This document shows, piece after piece, positions 4,428-51,430 of a DNA stretch of 64,000 bases. Source of the DNA: Escallonia rubra (taxonomy: Eukaryota; Streptophyta; Magnoliopsida; Escalloniales; Escalloniaceae); assembly GCA_033065855.1 (NCBI GenBank), contig JAVXUO010000600.1, forward strand, positions 62,001 to 126,000, given 5' to 3'. The translations under genes were made by a program, and so were the position numbers. The notes beneath the pieces are model-generated. The model saw only the letters and a program-made list of their open reading frames with translations, was not told the origin of the DNA and searched no databases. How positions within the stretch are numbered: position 1 is the first letter of the stretch; every line of letters begins with the position of its first letter.

Positions 4428-5275
4428 TAACTATATATATATAAAGTTGAAATCTTTGCTTAAAATTGCAACACATAGGATTTTATGAACTCTATCTTTG
4501 CAACATGTAAGACTTTTTAAGAGCCTTCTCCTTCTGACATGTAAGTTTCAACTTTGCATGTGATAGTCCCCTAACTCAGTTGATCTCTTTATTTAGAGTC
4601 CAACTCTTTTGAATTAGATATATAAAATTCAAGAATCCTATTTGTTTTGGTATTCTTTTCTTTTTCTACTCTACTTAACTCTTTACTATAATCTATTATT
4701 AAAAAATTCGTAGGTATAATTTATGCAATATTTTAAAACTTTATAAAACTAAGAAACTAATTATACACCTTCTAAAACTCTACCTAATCAATATACTTAT
4801 ACATTAGACCTTAATATTGATTATTAAAACCTCAAAAGTACTTTAAAATAACAATATAAATTCTCAAAAATGTAAAATACGAAAATCATACCCTACTTAC
4901 TAATTCTTTAGTACGAGCATAGGCCCGAATTTTCTATTTAACTCTTCCCTAACTTAGTTAATCTCTTTATTTAGAGTCCAAGATTCAAGAATCCTATTTG
5001 TTTTTGTATTCTTTTCTTTTTCTACTCTATTTAACTTTTTACTTTAATTTATTATTAAAAAATTCATAGGTATAATTTATGCAATATTTTTAAACTTTAT
5101 GAAACTAAGAAACTAATTATACACCTTCTAAAATTCTACCTAATCAATATACTTATACATTAGGCCTTAATTTTAATTATTAAAATCTCAAAAGTACTTT
5201 AAAATAACAATATAAAATCTTAAAAATATAAAATACGAAAATCATACCCTACTTACTAATTCTTTAGTATGATCA
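4428..5275. repeat. Repeated Helitron head sequences
   Basis: The first ~470 bases of the Helitron (1737-2205) recur, diverged, at about 4428-4900 and again in part at about 4925-5275: the TATATATAAA start, the motif AAGAATCCTATTTGTTTTGG, and the CATACCCTACTTACTAATTC stretch. The element is therefore a composite of at least three head-like modules, a pattern seen when Helitron ends nest or are amplified. Confidence 0.8.
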
Positions 5276-26424: not shown

Positions 26425-27954
26425 CTTCCCCTCAGTGCCAACCTTCTACACGTTACTCCTAATAAATCTCTAAATTTTGAGAATTTATTATAGCAGAGAG
26501 CTTTGGTCAGTACATCTGCTACTTGATCATCTGTCCGAATTGGCATCAATCTGATATCTCCCTTGAGAACTTTCTCCCTTATAAAATGATGTTGTACCTC
26601 AACATGTTTTGTCCTGGCATGGAACACAGGATTCTCTGCAAGTTTGATTGCACTTTCACTATCACAATGTAAGGTGATTGGACAATCCACATGTTGATGA
26701 AGCTCTTTAAATAACATGGCTAACCATGTGCTTTCTTGTGCCGCCATTGCTGCTGCTCGATATTCAGCTTTTGTGGTTGACAAAGACACGGTTGGTTGGC
26801 TCCCGATCCGAGATTAAAACAATAACATGTTGTCGACCTTCTTGTTGATTTATCCCCTGCATAATCAGCATCACAAAATCCATTGATTTTGTAACCTCCT
26901 CTTCTATACATGATACCAAAATCAATAGTTCCTTGTAGATACTTTAGTATTCGTCGAGCAGCTTCAAGATGAGGCTTCTTAGGAGCTTGCATAAATCTGC
27001 TTACCATACCAACTGCCTGAACAATATCGGGCCTAGTTAGTGTCAAATATATCAAACTCCCAATCAATTGTCTGTACTTAGTTGGATCTTTGATGTCTTC
27101 CCCTTCATCCATGTGAAGATTAGCATTAACTTCCATTGGAGTTTCAATAACATTGCTTCCAAACAACCCAAAACGAATAAGTAGATCCTTTGCATATTTC
27201 TGTTGACACAGAAATATGCCTTCTTCATTTTGCTCAAGTTCAAGCCCAAGAAAATGATGTAGCTCTCCTAGCTTCTTCAAATGAAATCGTACTCCAAGAT
27301 TGACTTGAACTCTGTCAATTTCTTCACTATCATCACCGGTTATAATCAGATCATCAACATAAATTAAAATGACAGAAATCTGCCCATTTGCGAGTTTCAC
27401 AAACAGGCTAGAATCTGCAGCAGTCATTGAGTAGCCAATCGCTTGAAGAAATTCTGCAATTTTTCCAAACCAAGCTCTTGGAGCTTGTTTCAACCTGTAA
27501 AGTGCTTTCCGCAATCTGCATACATAGTGCGGATATGTCGTGCTCTCAAAACCTTTGGGTTGTTCCATAAAGATTTCCCGATCAACTTCACCATGCAAAA
27601 ATGCATTTTTACATCCATTTGCCACAACCTCCATTTTAAACAAGCGGCAAGAGCAATAAGAACTCTAACTGTTGTAATTTTAGCCACAGGACTAAAAGTA
27701 TCATCATAATCATGCCCGTATTGCTGAGAAAAACCTCGCGCTGCAAGTCGCGCCTTGTACCTTTCTATGTCACCATTCGCCTTCATCTTAATCTTGTATA
27801 CCCATTTACAAGAAATGGTCTTCACATCAGATGGTCGTGGCACAAGATCCCATGTCTCATTTTGTTGCAAAGCCTTGATTTCTTCAATCATTGCTTCTCT
27901 CCAATTGATGTTGCCTTGTGCATCTTCAAAAGAAATTGGCTCATCTTTTGTTGT
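26378..27954 (-). pseudogene. Copia reverse transcriptase and RNase H, frameshifted
   Basis: Continues in frame after the TGA: WREAMIEEIKALQQNETWDL, CKWVYKIKMKANGDIERYKA, RLAARGFSQQYGHDYDDTFS. Near 27610 one base is lost in an A run, breaking the DVKNAFLHG motif. The next frame (27643-26720) holds EVDREIFMEQPKGFE, the catalytic YVDDLIITG, and RPDIVQAVGMVSRFMQAPK. A second break after LGSGA (about 26790) removed around seven codons. The last frame (26789-26370) has SLSTTKAEYRAAAMAAQE of RNase H and runs into the LTR. Confidence 0.92.
26425..26433 (-). promoter_or_regulatory. Copia polypurine tract
   Basis: GAGGGGAAG on the minus strand lies directly against the 3' LTR, the normal place for priming of plus-strand DNA. 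Confidence 0.9.
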
Positions 27955-30636
27955 TCATGTGAATGCAGCTGCAACACTCAAATTTGCATACCTTAGATTC
28001 GGTTTTGAAATGCGTTTAGATCGTCGTGGTCCTTCACTAACACCTTCCACATCAGATGTATTGTCCTGAGGACCTCCTGATGATCTGACCATCTCTTCTT
28101 CGTCATGACTACTCGTATCTTCATGAGTAGATATGGGTTCTGTCAGAGCACTTGCTTTCTCTAGCATCTCCATCTCGACTTGCCGATTTTCTGGTGCAAT
28201 TGCTTGATCAGATGGCCACCACGAAGATGATTCATCGAACACTACATTTCTTGAAATGTGTACACGGCCCGTGTTGGGATCAATGTATCTCCTTCCCTTT
28301 CTCTCGGAGTCATATCCAGTGAATATGCCTATAATGGATCTCTTGTCAAATTTACTACGTAAATGATCAGGTACAAATACATAGCAAACAGACCCAAAAA
28401 CCTGAAAATGGTTTACACTAGGTGTATGCGCAAACAATCTTCCAAAAGGCGACACGAAACCCAGTCTTGCTTGGGGTAACCTATTTGCGATGTCTATGGC
28501 AGCACCCATGCATTCTGCCCAGAATCTTGTTAGAACATTTTTGGCAGGCAGCGTACTCCTTGCTGCCTCGGGAAGGTGTCGATTCTTCCTTTCATCTATC
28601 ACGTTTTCTTGAGGTGTGTTCGGACAAGTGAATTGCCTTGAGATCCCTTGCTTTTGAGTATACGTTGAAAACTCAAGAGAAGAGTACTCACCACCATTGT
28701 CGGACCTCAAACATTTTATTTTACACTTGAGACTAGCTTCTACTTGATTCTGGAATTCTACAAACTTTTTGAACACTTCAGACTTTTCTTTAATAAAATA
28801 CGCCCACACATATCTAGAAAAATCATCAATGAAAGTTACCATGTACTTTTTGCCTCCAAAAGATTTTGTTTTGCCTTTGCCAAACACATCTGAATGTACC
28901 AGTTCTAGCGGCATTTTCGCTTGAAACTTTGACTCAGCATATGGAAATTGTTGGGCTTTGCCATATTGACAACCTGAACATACAACATCATATCGTACTT
29001 CCAGTTGAGGAAGCCCTCTTACCAGCTGTGTTTGCATCATTACCTTAAGTTTTGTGAAGCCAACAGGAGGAAGCCTCGTGTGCCATAGATCAGTTGTTTC
29101 ATGCTTCCTTGTTCTGTCAACGTATGCTTCTTGAGCTGTCATAACATAGACAGATTCAAGCCTTCTTCCCTGCATGTAAGGTTCCCCTGAAATTTCTACA
29201 GATTCATATACTTTTACATCATCAGGCCCAAACACAACATAACCACCAGATTTGGTTAGTTGAGACACTGAAAGCAAATTTTTCTTCATATCTGGAACAT
29301 GATATACGTTTTCAAGCACAAGATCTTTTTGAGTTGATGCTGGTGTACATGATACATTACCGACATGAGCAATGGAGAGTTTGGCATTATTTGCAGTGAC
29401 CACACTCCTCTTCCCTTTGTAGTTAGTCTTGCAAACAAATTTCCTTTCATCACCTGTCATGTGATTGGAGCAGCCGGAGTCGATAATCCATTCTTTGGAG
29501 TGGATTGAATTATTCAGTCTGCTTGCTTCTGCCGAGCTAGTAATGTCGTCTTCATCAACCGCTGTGAAAACAACATCGTGTTGATGTTTACGAAGCACGA
29601 ACTCCTCCCATTCTTGGTCTTCAGATGCGTACTCAATTGATTGATCTTCGACAATTGAAATGAATGCTCCCCATTCTTCTTCACTGTCATCATGAGATTT
29701 GTTAGAACCCGCTTTATAATTATCAACAACAGCATTACCTTCCTCAAACATCTTCATTGGTGTGCGGAAATCTTTAGTAAGGTGGCCGGTTTTACCACAA
29801 TTACAGCAAAGTGCACGACAATTTCTAGCAAAATGGCCAACCTTACCACAATTGTAACAGGTCACTTTGGTTTTGAAGTTGGATTCTTGCTTTTCTGATT
29901 CTCGACCATTTGAAGCTTCCCCTGTTTGGAGACTTCCTTGGCTTTGCTTATTCTTGTTTCTGGACTTATTCCCTCGTCCCACAAAGAGTGCTTCTTCATT
30001 ATCTTTGACAGATAGGCCTGCCATTTGCTTTGCCAAACTCTCCTGATTTGCTAGAAGACTTTCTAGCTCAAGTAAAGATGGTTGACTAGGCCACCCTTGA
30101 ATAGCAGTAATAAAACCACTATATTCTGGCTTTAATCCGCGGATAATAATTCGCCGTTGCCTTGCATCTGAGATTCTTGATTCCTTGTCGAGTTGAGAAA
30201 TCTCTTGACAAATCATTTTAACTCTTATAAAGTAATCTGAGATAGTCATAGTACCTTGGCTTAATGACCCGATCTCATTTTCCAGCATTTGTAGTCGAGC
30301 TCCATTCTTTTTCGAAAACAAAGTGGCAAAGGCATCCCATGCCTCTTTAGGAGATTTTGCATCACGGATGTGATCAAGCAGATCCTTTTGTGTGGAAGCC
30401 TTCAGTACAAACAAGGCTTTTCCAGCTTTAATTTTCCATTTTCTCAGCACCTCGCCAAATTCTGAAGCAGCATTTGGTGGAGTTGTATCAGCTCCGTTGA
30501 CGACATCCCACAAATCTTGCCCTTGGAGATACGACTCTAGGCATGACTTCCAATCATTGTAGTTGGTATGAGTCAACTTTTCAATTCCACCAACAGAGTT
30601 AGGAAACTCCATGACAGCAAAGTACTCTTTGATCAA
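27955..30636 (-). pseudogene. Copia gag-protease-integrase ORF (ends at a nonsense codon)
   Basis: An 893-codon frame; the likely start is MEFPNSVGG, a few codons in. GAG has KLTHTNYNDWKSCLESYL. Zinc knuckle 1 is complete (CYNCGKVGHFARNC). Knuckle 2 has lost its last Cys (CCNCGKTGHLTKDF). Protease has WIIDSGCSNHMTG. Integrase has the zinc-binding region ending CSGCQYGKAQ, then the core with HSDVFG (Asp), DDFSRY and RSDNGGEYSS (Asp); near the third acidic position NTPQENVIDERKN differs from the usual N.TPQQNGVVERKNR, but the Glu is present. The C-terminal GKR-type region is VFGSVCYVFVPDHLRSKFD. The frame ends at TGA (27957-27955) after RRSKRISKPNLRY, where reverse transcriptase would continue in the same frame. 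Confidence 0.93.
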
Positions 30637-30672
30637 ACACTCTCTATTTCAGTAAGGGGATTACTTGAACCT

Positions 30673-45411: not shown

Positions 45412-45782
45412 TTACCCATTATAATCCTTTCTAATCCGATGGAGCTCTTTGACAACATTCCCACTGTCCATTCTCTCATGTGGCAATTCTGCAGAGCATA
45501 TAACTCCAAGTTGGAGAATAGACTCCAAACATGACTTGAGTTTAGCAAACTCGCCTTCGCCATGCCTGTTCTTATTCAAACCTTCCAATTCTTCAAGTAT
45601 GATCGTTGAATCAACAATCTCCATCATGCGATCAGGGAGAGCAAACTTGACATAGTTATGAAGGCTAAAGTTGTCTATAAACATGTTGTCAGTAGGTCTT
45701 TTTCCGGTAAACATTTCCAACAACATTATTCCGTAGCTGTACATGTCAGCTTTTGTTGATGCTTCCTCCCCCATGCCATATT
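45412..45782 (-). CDS. LRR-kinase exon 3 (kinase C-lobe)
   Basis: 371 bases from acceptor CACTACAG|AATATGG. It encodes [35 protein letters not shown], a lobe with [14 protein letters not shown], and the end [18 protein letters not shown]...TAA. The 463-bp intron before it lies at the usual place for class XII kinases. Confidence 0.9.
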
Positions 45783-48700
45783 CTGTAGTGTGGAACAGCT
45801 TAGATACTTCTTTAGACATGTAGATGGAACTGTATAAGCAGATTAGCAGCTTCATCACAGATTCTTTTGGTATGAAACGCAACAAGGAGTAACTTAGTAT
45901 ATATCAGGCTCCAAATCTAAAATCATCTCTAAATCTCCAAGATGAGATTCGGTTAGCAGCTACAATTTGCAAGATCAAAATGAAAGGAGGACTAACTAAT
46001 ACTACCACCGTTTCACTGGATTTTCCCCTTTTACCGTCTGGGATAGGCTTGGAGTAATTCTGGTACAGGCAACTACTGAACTGCACTTCAATGGAGAGCA
46101 CATATTAAATAAGTAAAATTTGGCAAGGCAAGCTAGGGTCAATATAACGAGTAAAGTCAACGTTTGCAAATACTAAATCTATCCTGGGAATTTTTAACTG
46201 TCTATGGGGAAAACGAAATGGAGTATATGAATGAGCATTATGTACCTGGAGCGACATATCCAAGTGTTCCTCGAATCCCAGCTGAACTAAAATGTGCATT
46301 GTTCGATAAATTTGTATTGGCTGACAGAAATCTTGCGAGGCCAAAATCACCAACATGTGCACAAAGGTCATCGTCAAGAAGAACATTTCTTGGCTTGAGA
46401 TCACAATGGCAGATTATCGTTTCACAATGATGGTGAATATAATCCAATGCAGAAGCCACGTCAATTGCAATGCTTAGTCTCTGGACCAAGTTCAAGTTCG
46501 ACCCCTGCTCTTCAGCTTGAGTTGGATGCAACCAGCTGTCTAAACTCCCATTTGGCATAAATTCGAAGACGAAAGCCTTGAAGTCTTTGCCTTTGAAATC
46601 TAAGCTTGAGCAAACAGTGATGATCTTGATGAGATTCCTGTGACGGAGGATTCTCAACACATCGCACTCTGCCATGAAACTCTTGTTAGCTCCACGTTCT
46701 TGAAGTTTAAGTACCTTCACGGCAACAATGTGTTCACCAGAATTTAGACTGCCTTTGTAGACAGAACCATACCTACCCTCGCCAATCAAATTACTTGGGG
46801 AAAACTCATTGGTAGCATGAAGAAGTTCTGCATAAGTGATTTTTGGATATTGGTTTTCCAAGAGTGAGGCAGAAGAGGTTCTCTGTTGGGATTTTTTGAG
46901 TCTATAAAAGATCAAAAAAAGACTTGCTAACAGCAGAACAATGGGAAGAGTGATTAAAAGAGGTATCATTTTGTCAGGAAATGGTCTTTTATTCTTCTTT
47001 GAGGACTTTATGGGACAGGCAGGCAAATGCAGTGGGCCAATTCCTCCACAAAGCTTCATATTTTTTCCCACGACTGAAAATGCACTAATGTTGTTGAAAA
47101 CTCCCACTTTTGGAACTTCCCCCTCAAACATATTATGCGAAAGGTTGAGGAGGCGCATAAAAGGTAGCTTGCCTAGAAACTCTGGAATCGGCCCAGACAG
47201 ATTATTTTGGGACAGATCAAGTTGTTGGATGCCTTTTAATTGGTCAAGTGATGATGGAATGGCTCCATCCAAAAAATTGCCATGCAAATATAGGTACTCC
47301 AATACTAGACAATTACCAAGAGCGCTTGGGATTTCTCCTGTCAATTTGTTTCCTGAAATAGACAATTTTCCGAGGTTTTTCAAATTGCCCACTTGTGATG
47401 GAAGTGGTCCTGTGAATTCATTTAGCTCCAAGTAGAGGGCGACACTGAGGGAAGAAATTCCAATAACTTGCTCGGGTATCACGCCAGTTAGGCGATTGAT
47501 TCCTAAATCAAGTGCTTGCAGATTCGTGCAGTTACCCAACTCAGCCGGTATACTGCCCTCGAGCATGTTTTCTGCAGCAGCCAGATAGCTCAGTCCGGTA
47601 ATGTTGCCAATGGATGATAGAATTTTTCCAGAGATGTTATTTCTCACAATTCGCAGCTGTTGCAACTTGGAAAGTTTCCCAATGGATTCAGGGATGCTGC
47701 CTGAGATCATGTTATGACCTATTTTTAGAAGGTACAAGTTGTTGAGGTTACCAATCTCTTGTGGTATGCTTCCGGATATTTTGTTCGCTCCCAGCCATAA
47801 TGTCTCTAGTTTAGACGACAGATTTGTAATAGAACCCGGCAACACACCTCCAAATTGGTTTTTTGATAGTATCAACTTTCGTAGATTAGTGCAATTTGTC
47901 AAGGAACCAATGAAGCTCAAGTCGTCTAGTTTATTCGACCCGAAGCGGTTTCCATCAAGTCCTAGAGTCTTTAAGTCGCGAAGGTTTCCCATATTCGACG
48001 GTATAGGCCCTGCGAAATCGTTCGAATCCACACTCAAGAATAGAAGTCCAGAAGCGTTAGCCATCGAGGGTGGAAACGAACCCGAGAAATTGTTTAATCC
48101 AAGGTAAAGGTATTTGAGGTTTGGCAGTGTGAGGCCCAAATCTAGTGAAAGATGACCATGCAATCTGTTGATTGAGAGGGCAAAGGAATATATGGATGAG
48201 ATATTGTAAAGCTGCAGGGGAAGCGTACCGGACAACTGGTTACGATCTAAATACAAAAGATTCAAGTTGCGAAGCTGCCCAAGTTCCGAAGGAATGTTTC
48301 CCTCCAGTTTGTTAAAGCCCAAATCAAGCGCAAGAAGAGAGGTGAGATTCCCGATTGAAGGTGGGATTCTGCCTGTGACATGAAACAGTAAAGTTTAGCT
48401 TGTTAAGCATGAATTCTCACCAATGCTCATCGCCCATGTACATAGTTTAGCTCTAATTTTGTGCCAAATGTCACCTTTTTACTTCCAACTCTCTGGTAAA
48501 GTTTTACTTAAATAAATTGGACAATTTAAATGGAACTCTATCTAGTTTTTTTTTTTCCAATTTAGTTTTTCTAGGTATATTGTGTTATAACCCATGAATC
48601 GAACTCTATCTAATTCTTTAGTTAACTTTTCTAGATACATTGTATCATAATTTATTATTATCACTGTCATAATCCTTCTAATTGATTATTTATTTCATCA

Positions 48701-51162
48701 AACAGATCGTAACAATTGCTAAAGAGATTTAATGTATTTTACTAAAATTACATTTGACTAATTACACCAGATTTTACCTACAAGTTGGAAGAATACACCA
48801 TTTGTACACGTGTATTACTAATTAGGCAATAAACTTTTAATCAATGTTTTGTCACTGAGAATATTTTGGTGCCCTCGGTTCACTTGTGAGGTACGAATGT
48901 CGGAGTAGAATAGCAAATTAGAAAGTGAAAATAATCTTGCGGCCTTCGAGAACAAACAACAGTTAAAGCATGTTATTATATAGAATGTTATAGTTTCGTC
49001 TCAAAATATCATACAATAACTTGTTTTAGTACTGGTATCTTTCAAATGTTTATGTTTTTATTTTGGTATAGAACTCGAAAATATAGGCTTATCATTTTCT
49101 TCTTCTTTTTGTAGTGAAAGTGTAATGAGCAAAACTTAATTAATTATCATTGCGCAAAAAATAAGGATCAGGAGAAAAGAATGGATTTATCTCATTTGTT
49201 TGACAAAGGTAGTTAAAATACTATATAGAAAGTTACATCTTCATGTAAATTAAAAAAACCATATAATTAAGGAAAACTTCTCTTGGTCGCGGCAATTTTC
49301 GTCCCACTCTAGAAAGACACGTCATTATCGCTCTTGTAGACAAAAGTGAAAAAAGAACGTCTCCTCTCATCGTCAATGCCCTGCTTCATTTGTTCTACAA
49401 TAATGCATGTCATAACAATAAGACATGATATGAGGAAGAGCTTAACGTATAGTACTGATTCTTTCAAATATTTATTTTTTATCTTATTAAATGATTAGAA
49501 AGTATCTTGATCTTTTCTTGTTCTTTTTGTATGAAAGTGTATGAGTAAAGCTTAACTAACAATTATTCTCCAAATCATACGGACCACAACAAAATAACGG
49601 ATTTGTCTCATTTGTTTATAGGGTAGTTAAATACTATAAAAAAACGTTACAGATTTATGTAAAAAATTATATGATATACATTTTTCTTGGTCAAGACAAC
49701 TTCCGACCCTCTTCTGAAAGAAATATTATGCACTTATTGACATATGTAAAAAGAGAGAGCCTCCATTAACCGTCAGTTTGTTACTTCATTTGTTCTTTCT
49801 CTCTCTCTCTCTCTCTTTGTCTGTAATCTGGCACCCCCCCCCCTCCCCGGCGCAAAAAAGCCTCATTTCGGCATCAAAAGTTGGAAGGCCACCTTGGATC
49901 TCAGTTTTCCCCCATCGACATTTCCTGCGCCGCAAGTTCACCGTAGAATCACACTGACCTTCGAAATCGACGCCGCGGTACCGCCTCCACCTTTTCCCAG
50001 AAGAAGACCGGCCCCTAGTGCACTCGCCAAGCACAACTCCTAGTGCACCCCCTCCACCCTGGCAGCGCCGGCGGCCTAGTCGTCTTCAACCTCGAGCTCG
50101 CGACACGCACCTAACAACCACTCCACAACCACGGTAGAAAATCACCACTCAACCCACACGTTGCCGCACGAACCACCACACACTGCACGATCATCAATCA
50201 CCACGCCACGCCACACGCTGACAAATCGCCGCATCACTACCCCAGATGCGCAGTTGCCATCACCACTCTATTCACCAACCACCGCGTCCACCAATCACCA
50301 TACTCACCACCGTCGACGATTGGATTTTATTATTTGGATTTGGTTTTGAATTGGTAAGGGTAGGCGTGGAGGTTCATAGCGACAAGCTGGTGGCGGTAAG
50401 TGCGGTGGTTGATAGGGGGGAGGTGATGGCAGTAGGTGTGGCCGGTGTGGGTTGCAATGGTGGTCGAGGTTGTCCAGTGATTGGAAGAAGGAGATTAGAA
50501 GGGAAAAAAAGGCCAAAGAAAATTGTGAACTCTTCAGATACCTGAAAATTTTGCAAGCTCGTCACTTTGACGAAGATCTTGACAGAATTTGGTCGGAGAG
50601 TGCTAGATGTCACATTTATGTAACTTTGTAATGTGGGATAGTTAAAACGAACTTTATGATGCCAAACTCTTTCATGCGCCTTATCTAATTAAGCCTTGGT
50701 GAAAAGTATAGGAAGCTTACCTCGGAAAGAGTTGTTAAACAGCGAAAGAGACTGTAGGCGAAACAATTGGCCTATCTCTGGAGGAATGGTGCCATGGAAG
50801 CTATTGTGGTCGAGACGGTGCTCCCTAAGGAATGTCAGTCTTCCGATTTGGGGAGATACTGAGCCCACTAAATTTTGTGACACCAACCATAGTGCGGTTA
50901 CTCGTTGATGCTGCCGACCGCATGTAATTCCTTTCCATTCGCAGAAATTGAGAGAATCATTCCATGAGCTAAGGACTGCGAAAGGGTCTTCCTGAATTAG
51001 TTCCTTGAACGAGAGCAAAGCCTGTCGATCCGTCTCATTTGTGAAACCGGCTGCATCAACCGATCCTCTGCAGTTCATGGCAAAGAGAAGCCAAGAGAGT
51101 ATAAGAGACAAGTTTAGTACCCTTCGAAACATGTTAGAGGAGGCCATGACCATGCACATCAA
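45412..51162 (-). CDS. LRR receptor-like kinase, class XII (non-RD), three exons
   Basis: Exons 51162-50721, 48372-46246 and 45782-45412 join in frame to 979 residues. The likely start is MASSNMFRR (51147); three Met codons precede it. Order: signal peptide ([14 protein letters not shown]), LRRNT_2 cap ([31 protein letters not shown]), 20 LRRs of about 24 residues, cap with CGG and LPAC, transmembrane segment ([20 protein letters not shown]), kinase. Kinase motifs: [19 protein letters not shown] (Lys), [26 protein letters not shown], and a final ERM...VV.EL. HCD instead of HRD marks a non-RD kinase, as in EFR, XA21 and FLS2, which sense microbial patterns at the plasma membrane. The kinase intron splits the Glu of APE. 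Ligand unknown. The gene is somewhat shorter than XA21 or EFR, and a 2.35-kb intron interrupts the LRR array. Confidence 0.9.
46246..48372 (-). CDS. LRR-kinase exon 2
   Basis: 2127 bases from acceptor TGTCACAG|GCAGAA to donor CCAG|GTACAT. It encodes [19 protein letters not shown] onward, LRR3-LRR20, transmembrane segment and kinase subdomains I to VIII. No stop or shift inside. Confidence 0.92.
48373..50720 (-). other. Large intron inside the LRR array
   Basis: 2348 bases. The part next to exon 2 is AT-rich, with an imperfect direct repeat (about 49020-49390 against 49440-49795, offset about 418). The part nearer exon 1 has a (CT)n run (49797-49816), a nine-C tract near 49833 and CCACC-rich sequence (50040-50310). 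No LRR coding is recognizable inside. Small frames at 49786-50034 and 50246-50545 are compositional. Confidence 0.75.
50721..51162 (-). CDS. LRR-kinase exon 1
   Basis: 442 bases: signal peptide, N-terminal cap and LRR1 to the middle of LRR3 ([10 protein letters not shown]). It ends CGAG|GTAAGC, a strong donor, in phase 1. Unspliced, the frame would read GKLP and stop 12 codons later. Confidence 0.88.
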
Positions 51163-51199
51163 TTGTGAGAAGAAAGATGAGCTTCAACTGGTAATATAG

Positions 51200-51430
51200 A
51201 GGAGGCCATGACCATGCACATGTTAGGGTCGACCTCCAGTTGACCTGCTTTTTAGTCTTCGGGTGCTATGGCTCCCACCTATTTGAACTTAAGGCTTAAC
51301 GTCATTAGTAAGCTGAAGTACAAGGTGCAGTTAGGGTCGACCTCCAGTTGACCTGCTTTTTAGTCTTCGGCTGCTATGGCTCCCACCTCTTTGAACTAAA
51401 GGCTTAACATCATTAGTAAGCTGAATCTTG
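51200..51430. repeat. 108-bp tandem duplication just upstream of the LRR-kinase gene
   Basis: GTTAGGGTCGACCTCCAGTT starts at 51222 and again at 51330, followed in both by CTGCTTTTTAGTCTTCGG and CCATGGCTCCCACCT-like text. A short copy of the start region (GAGGCCATGACCATGCACAT) is also repeated at 51139 and 51201. Copy B near 8000 has the GTCGACCTCC block only once, so the duplication is specific to the intact copy. It lies in the leader/promoter region. Confidence 0.88.

Follow-up and report, generated by a model that had tools for sequence, protein, structure and literature searches.

An intron within the leucine-rich repeat array of Escallonia rubra class XII receptor kinases, probably gained by transposon insertion

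Receptor kinases with leucine-rich repeats (LRRs) of subfamily XII are those of the FLS2, EFR and XA21 type, and their LRR array is expected to lie in one exon. How, then, did an intron come to divide the LRR array of the class XII gene found in a 64,000-nucleotide stretch of the Escallonia rubra genome (contig JAVXUO010000600.1, positions 62,001 to 126,000; the window), and what became of the two LRRs that its protein lacks? The evidence set out below indicates that this is probably a genuine spliceosomal intron, which the ancestor of an Escallonia class XII subfamily would have acquired through transposon insertion. A first-pass annotation, made from the letters of the window alone, had proposed an insertion into this gene. 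Inserted DNA was found, but the event is old and common to the E. rubra subfamily, and an insertion private to the window gene was ruled out.

The gene is arranged as follows, a slash within a sequence marking a splice junction or its equivalent.

51159, minus strand: alternative start, an in-frame ATG upstream of 51147
50721..51147, minus strand: exon 1, with signal peptide, LRRNT and first LRRs, ending NNSFR + G in phase 1
48373..50720, minus strand: intron 1, 2,348 bp, phase 1, interrupting the LRR exon of the receptor kinase
46246..48372, minus strand: exon 2 (whole)
48151..48372, minus strand: E2a, the first 222 nt of exon 2, with three LRRs
46246..48150, minus strand: remainder of exon 2, with the other LRRs, the transmembrane segment and the start of the kinase
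45783..46245, minus strand: intron 2, in the kinase domain, at AP/EYGMG
45412..45782, minus strand: exon 3, with the end of the kinase domain and the stop codon

The exon 1/intron 1 junction at 50721 reads TCCGAG/GTAAGC, and the intron 1/exon 2 junction at 48372 reads TTTCATGTCACAG/GCAGAATCC. The coordinates and the phase-1 split of the LRR frame had been placed correctly at first pass, and the spliced reading does preserve the LRR spacing of 24 residues across the junction. Recounting of the predicted spliced protein again gave 20 LRRs, but its length comes to 978 residues when translation starts at the first ATG (51159) and to 974 when it starts at 51147; the figure of 979 was thus one too many. 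Pfam LRRNT_2, LRR and Pkinase were all above cut-off in this protein, a transmembrane segment was identified by eye, and HCD replaces HRD in the kinase. The class XII grouping is indicated by the names of homologues (At3g47570-, At3g47110- and XA21-like), and the tree agrees; the best match among sequences of solved structures was FLS2, and the nearest protein matches were E. rubra models. The gene is like subfamily XII in its LRRNT, LRR solenoid, transmembrane segment, HCD kinase and kinase-domain intron, and differs in the additional LRR-array intron and in having two LRRs fewer than 69 of 73 homologues. It thus departs from the single-exon array of subfamily XII, intron 1 dividing the array, and we read it as a derived exception within the subfamily because it carries the remaining features of the class.

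Intron 1 DNA matched paralogs on 19 contigs (C1000, that of the window, included), mostly at 76-93% identity. Twenty paralog slices were fetched, and 16 yielded complete introns up to the first E2a copy, giving 17 with the window; excluded from these were L010 (a slice without an E2a match), L013 and L014, and L022 (the continuation of L021). The intron was found at the same codon in 16 other fetched paralogous loci, with the GT start and the AG end at the same place in all 17 complete introns, although lengths ranged from 792 to 4,311 bp. The donor is GTAAG in 16 of them and GTTAG in L026. All 17 end in [CT]ATGTC[AG]CAG, with CTAAC at -27 in 13 introns and CTAAA at -26 in four, the window included. 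Gene models using these sites were open throughout in 7 of 16 cases: the window (974 residues), L012 (973), L015, L025 and L026 (974 each), C1608 (973), and L019, which is stop-free within its slice. The other nine, as built, are interrupted by a stop or a shift or have a damaged exon 1. The GT and AG chosen at first pass are therefore beyond chance. In a tree of 34 rows, the seven subfamily members tested formed one clade (100/100) on a stem of 0.44, the nearest relatives of which were not resolved in that tree. The intron gain predates the duplications of the E. rubra subfamily. At L013/L014 (C2534:52001-70000), probably one subfamily gene in two slices, the donor is GAAAGC and the intron is much longer.

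The extent of the LRR loss was determined in an alignment of 94 rows of 500-1,150 residues, made from the window protein and 120 listed homologues (the best 120 of 4,261), 27 being dropped for length; 73 of the 94 rows are outside the E. rubra subfamily. Of these 73 homologues, 69 have 48 residues, corresponding to two LRRs, between the anchors NNSF.G and G.IP..GNL (the others 47, 49, 96 and 144); the window protein has none of the 48. What had been described as a loss of about two LRRs is a loss of exactly two. No hidden exon carrying the missing LRRs was seen by eye inside the intron in three sense frames.

Uninterrupted relatives are present in the same genome. The 566-Mb assembly (3,222 contigs) was searched with the class XII protein P0038. 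Among the 52 matches listed (42 of 3,406 candidates scored), 23 places, which may include haplotype copies, cross the intron site in one piece; 17 matches begin only at residue 216-231 and represent the window subfamily; two loci show a split but no intron, and another ten rows are shorter fragments. At the uninterrupted places the matches mostly end at residue 941-947, and six rows restart at 939-942, at the position of intron 2. Twelve uninterrupted slices were fetched, 11 were read through by pattern (L045 was unmatched), and 9 of the 11 contain both LRRs. Comparison with paralogues, suggested as a check on the proposal, thus revealed uninterrupted LRR exons with two more repeats, and within this genome the intron was not seen in distant class XII genes. 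L044 (C669:85950-86550) and L050 (C669:158600-159250) are uninterrupted class XII exons that are one LRR short by plain in-frame deletion. Sharing of the intron with P0001/P0016, models that also end in NSFQ, was considered and dropped: contig C1030 holds the uninterrupted class XII exons L041 and L042, which read SLSLNSFQ/SLYLNSFQ as do P0001/P0016 and presumably are these genes. A short class XII model from Camellia fascicularis (P0292) ends with NNSFQG, level with the codon at which the Escallonia intron begins; this end could be an annotation cut or an insertion.

In several intronless paralogs, codons that match the intron ends resemble splice sites. In the uninterrupted paralog L040, the donor side reads GELPLNLTRC and the acceptor side SNRFTGRIPPS. 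Donor-like coding sequence stands at the matching codons in L044 and L050 (CAA/GGTAAG) and in L043 and L049 (CAA/GGTAAA), and acceptor-like TTCACAG/G in L040, L043 and L049. The earlier suggestion that the splice sites arose from coding sequence fits both these paralogs and the LRR relics described below.

The interior of the intron is made up mainly of two dispersed repeats, the first a terminal inverted repeat (TIR) element resembling Mutator-like elements (MULEs), of the miniature inverted-repeat transposable element (MITE) type.

50715..50720, minus strand: donor site GAG/GTAAGC, formerly Gly-Lys codons of LRR3
50696..50720, minus strand: start of the intron (25 nt), LRR3 coding now decayed (GKLP...), with the left target-site copy TTTTCACCAA in it
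49885..50695, minus strand: MULE-like TIR element (MITE), its right terminus lost in the window copy
49797..49884, minus strand: low-complexity stretch of poly-G/C and GA repeats, by eye
48444..49796, minus strand: second dispersed repeat, containing a tandem duplication of about 400 bp, its other end undefined
48373..48443, minus strand: 3' tail of the intron, unique sequence, carrying a branch-point-like CTAAA at -26 and the acceptor TTTCATGTCACAG

Copies of the MITE part (49885-50695) were found on 16 contigs outside the subfamily, and matches to the second repeat (48444-49796) on ten other contigs. In slices of 4-10 kb from five loci per repeat (L029-L038, of which L034-L038 represent the MITE), receptor-kinase coding was detected by tblastn in 0 of 10. 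The paralogs carry, at the equivalent of window 49797..49884, the right end of the MITE and the left end of the second repeat. In L018 the TIRs lie at intron positions 26-124 and 701-799, inverted and 77% identical. TIR pairs of 99-104 bp at 75-77% were found in L015, L016 (both 75%) and L018, and one of 114 bp at 67% in L011; L021, L024 and L026 have shorter inverted matches of 30-42 bp, and no TIR pair of these kinds was found in the other ten introns, the window included. The right end of the MITE, as read in 7 of the 17 introns, is TAACCC, followed by TTTCACCAA (TTTCACTAA in L023), TTGCTAA and CTAGCATAG, the sequence after TTGCTAA in these introns being CTAGCATAGTACCCGA[AG]CAATGCT.

The MITE starts about 25 nt past the donor, inside the former coding of the third LRR. 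The target-site copies on its two sides in L018, CTCTCAGCAA and CTTTCACCAA, are alike at 8 of 10 positions; a right copy is present in 7 of the 17 introns. From the left flank of L018 (CTCTCAGCAA) and that of the window (TTTTCACCAA), a target-site duplication of 9-10 bp is therefore likely, though imperfect. The target-site duplication of MULEs is 9 bp, and the first element appears to be a MULE-like MITE. In the paralogs the second repeat starts 7 nt past the right target-site copy. Its left end, read in 7 of the 17 introns, is A/CTAG with a hairpin CCCGAGCA-ATGCTCGGG, perfect in L020 and imperfect in the other six; similar ends are present in L030 and L031. Helitrons have a 3' hairpin near a CTRR end and insert between A and T. 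The second repeat would thus be Helitron-like, with its 3' end in reverse orientation; a Helitron 5' TC end was not found for it. The view that the intervening DNA had been replaced is borne out as far as the interior consists of dispersed repeats, but the coding sequence was interrupted and then decayed, not simply replaced.

Remnants of this coding sequence are still readable beside the elements. The text GKLP past the donor, pointed out at first pass as fitting LRR coding, is read in 15 of the 17 introns, with GKFP in L020 and a stop codon for the lysine (G-stop-LP) in L026. When the MITE and one target-site copy are removed from L018, the sequence reads GKLPLTFTNC, which resembles class XII text (GEFPTNLTHC, for example); the empty site joined from the left side of the window and the right side of L018 is likewise close to the class XII consensus. 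With the donor-constrained GK left out, the joined sites gave shuffle p values of 0.00028 (window left/L018 right) and 0.00095 (L018), and their scores were reached by 0 of 38,802 interior windows. On the acceptor side, LCLTENRF in L026, L023 and L019 scores 6.84 (p 0.00005-0.00045; seven introns tested), scores of 6 or above being reached by about 0.02% of interior windows. What reads as decayed LRR4 coding thus survives before the acceptor in some paralogs and is absent from the window copy. The residues VTG, to which attention had been drawn before the acceptor, are present, but the LRR score in that frame is poor (window -15.7, L018 -12.2, L026 -7.7); the better relic, LCLTENRF, is read in another frame, offset from that of VTG by about 4 nt, in paralogs and not in the window. 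The LRR3 and LRR4 text around the elements argues that both repeats were present when the elements landed.

We propose the following course of events. The LRR exon would originally have been uninterrupted, and a MULE-like MITE would have landed in LRR3, the Helitron-like repeat inserting just downstream of it. The transcript would have been rescued by splicing, with a latent donor GGTAAG at Gly-Lys codons upstream of the MITE joined to a latent acceptor resembling TTCACAG/G at Thr-Gly codons of the end of LRR4; in this scheme both splice sites largely pre-existed. The two sites share their phase and their place at the consensus glycine, in LRRs two repeats apart, and splicing between them therefore drops exactly two LRRs and keeps the frame and the solenoid register. 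The coding DNA enclosed in the new intron would then have decayed.

Several observations weigh against this proposal. The donor-side text alone reaches only p 0.02-0.03 (with another profile). The LRR4 relic scores 0.4 in L018 and L020 and -5.1 in L021, the window copy has no readable relic of it (score -19.5, p 0.63), and a 4-nt insertion between LCLTENRF and TG/RIPP is required. Free local alignment of the relics with five intronless paralogs gave p < 0.05 in 1 of 35 tests, and the relic tests were selected after the sequences had been seen. The target-site duplication is imperfect (8/10 in L018; 9/10 for window left versus L018 right), a clear one was not read at solo copies, and the window copy lacks the right end of the MITE. 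As to the splicing, the 14 published E. rubra models include 12 that restart beyond E2a, at [DP]LGLTLP (nine directly from NSF[QR]), and the other two, P0005 and P0013, resume at NRLHG, close to the end of E2a. A protein search restricted to the junction region gave no evident spliced Escallonia transcript, the listing being swamped by LRR proteins, many of them non-plant, and not every row inspected; nor was a transcript across the junction evident in a fragment search.

Resumption of 12 of the 14 models P0002-P0015 past E2a would be expected if the true acceptor lay just before DLGLTLP (window 48150) and E2a were also intronic. This is improbable. E2a is open in 17 of 18 copies adjoining the remainder of exon 2, and among the 17 open copies, with about 197 substitutions, 0 stops were seen against 7.9 expected (p 0.0003, by a simple neutral count that excludes the broken L028 copy). 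The published joins past E2a disrupt the LRR spacing, all 17 introns end in [CT]ATGTC[AG]CAG, and L025 has TTG where the alternative AG would be, its model P0005 using a different site. Models P0002-P0015 skip E2a wholly or nearly so, and the published subfamily models appear to omit three LRRs of exon 2 for which the genomic sequence is open and conserved.

The plain one-LRR in-frame deletions in the related class XII exons L044 and L050 make conceivable a different order, in which an in-frame deletion of two LRRs came first and the intron was formed later, from filler DNA or by insertion at the join. This order is quite improbable, since LRR3 text flanks the MITE left and right and LRR4 text precedes the acceptor. 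It is very improbable that the insertion killed the gene, the splice sites being chance and the copies pseudogenes: 9 of 16 models as built are broken, but the other seven are open throughout, E2a is constrained and the splice signals are conserved. Least credible is an intron ancestral to class XII and lost elsewhere, with the two LRRs missing through an unrelated deletion: the paralogous intron DNA, mostly 76-93% identical, does show that the intron is old in the subfamily, but 23 class XII places of this genome have no interruption, both repeats being present in 9 of the 11 read, the intron content is dispersed repeats next to LRR relics, and subfamily XII is, in excerpts of a published study, among those with a basic gene structure conserved across vascular plants (PMC5296948).

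Within the subfamily, the segment behind the proposed transposon-born intron has itself been multiplied. Five tandem E2a copies are present on C1608 (28001-46000; L021 and L022), at joined positions 4500, 6367, 8291, 10155 and 11839, each standing behind a copy of the 3' part of the intron. Two E2a copies each were found in L023 (C125), in L027 and L028 (two C3129 loci) and in L051/L052 (C1733), the inner copies of L023 and L028 being shortened. C1608 copies 1 and 2 differ at 18 of 219 bases (8.2%), with 16 nonsynonymous changes, 13 of them at 14 exposed sites, and 2 synonymous ones. Their flanks differ at 13 of 998 bases upstream and 8 of 543 downstream (1.3-1.5%); these rates predict 2.2-2.5 nonsynonymous changes against the 16 seen (Poisson tails 2e-9 and 9e-9). 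Other C1608 flanks are less alike (copy 3 downstream 2.8-6.9% and copy 4 upstream 8-9% different; copy 0 upstream about 65-70% alike), and with the worst flanks the tails became 2e-4 and 4e-4. The ten C1608 pairs, which are non-independent, together show 148 amino-acid differences, 100 of them at the 14 positions, out of 73, that are exposed; a similar split (1,354 of 1,962) was found in the 17 adjoining copies, a set with a single copy from each gene and with the last C1608 copy included. No near-identical source of gene conversion was found among the 22 copies compared, a part of all copies (nearest, 12-24 differences).

A phase-1 donor-like CAG/GTACG follows NQLS in C1608 copies 0-2, and CCG/GTACG stands there in copies 3 and 4; the CAG form occurs in 1 of the 17 adjoining copies, L020. 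LHG/GTCATC is another possible donor of the inner cassettes, CAG/GTACG being the better one. In the pairs among copies 0-2, differences before and after this site (144 and 78 nt) number 10:2, 16:2 and 16:2 (Fisher p 0.22, 0.04 and 0.04); such upstream crowding is absent from other pairs, and in the adjoining copies the last 78 nt are at least as variable. These patterns suggest, tentatively, that the inner copies may be two-LRR cassette exons under diversifying selection, the intron having made a single-exon LRR array modular. Spliced at CAG/GTACG, a cassette would lengthen the array by exactly two LRRs without loss of register, and the same splicing would place the stop of copy 0 within an intron. 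If this is true, a transposon insertion created a duplicable, fast-evolving recognition module.

Elsewhere in the window, Copia-type retrotransposon text in several open frames was recognised by eye at 26720-30648 on the minus strand, and short repeats, GGAGGCCATGACCATGCACAT and GGGTCGACCTCCAGTTGACC, were seen by eye 5' of the gene at 51140-51420. An Rfam scan of window 40-56 kb gave zero matches.

Transposon insertion with activation of nearby latent splice sites is a stated model of intron gain in excerpts of PMC3443670. The Escallonia case is alike in that the element is removed via nearby host splice sites; it differs from the model, as given there, in that the sites lie in two different repeat units so that whole LRRs are dropped in frame, and in having two element types with host relics still readable. 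An exonic ONSEN insertion in Arabidopsis AT4G34215 was intronized, according to excerpts of PMC12112155, and here too a plant transposon in an exon is spliced out as a new intron; ONSEN was a new laboratory insertion, whereas the Escallonia intron is inherited by a whole subfamily. Introner families were not found in land plants in a broad survey, of which excerpts also describe some families with TIRs and target-site duplications and splice sites that may be co-opted from the insertion site (PMC9860276); in contrast to Introners, the Escallonia element gave no sign of many introns, none having been systematically sought. In a literature search short of a full check, on intron gain in LRR receptor kinases and on exonic MITE insertions that make introns, no matching report was found. 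A transposon-born intron by latent sites is thus a known kind, and the Escallonia case, with its two-LRR in-frame drop, is a new form of it. To our knowledge, it is unusual in land plants for an intron gain to be found with the element, the target site, flanking relics and uninterrupted relatives in one genome.

The case suggests how repeat proteins may withstand insertions of this kind: LRR consensus codons can form a donor GGTAAG and an acceptor TTCACAG/G in the same phase, and skipping between such sites therefore removes whole repeats. For the Escallonia receptor kinases, the intron gain is suggested to have turned part of the receptor array into a duplicable unit.

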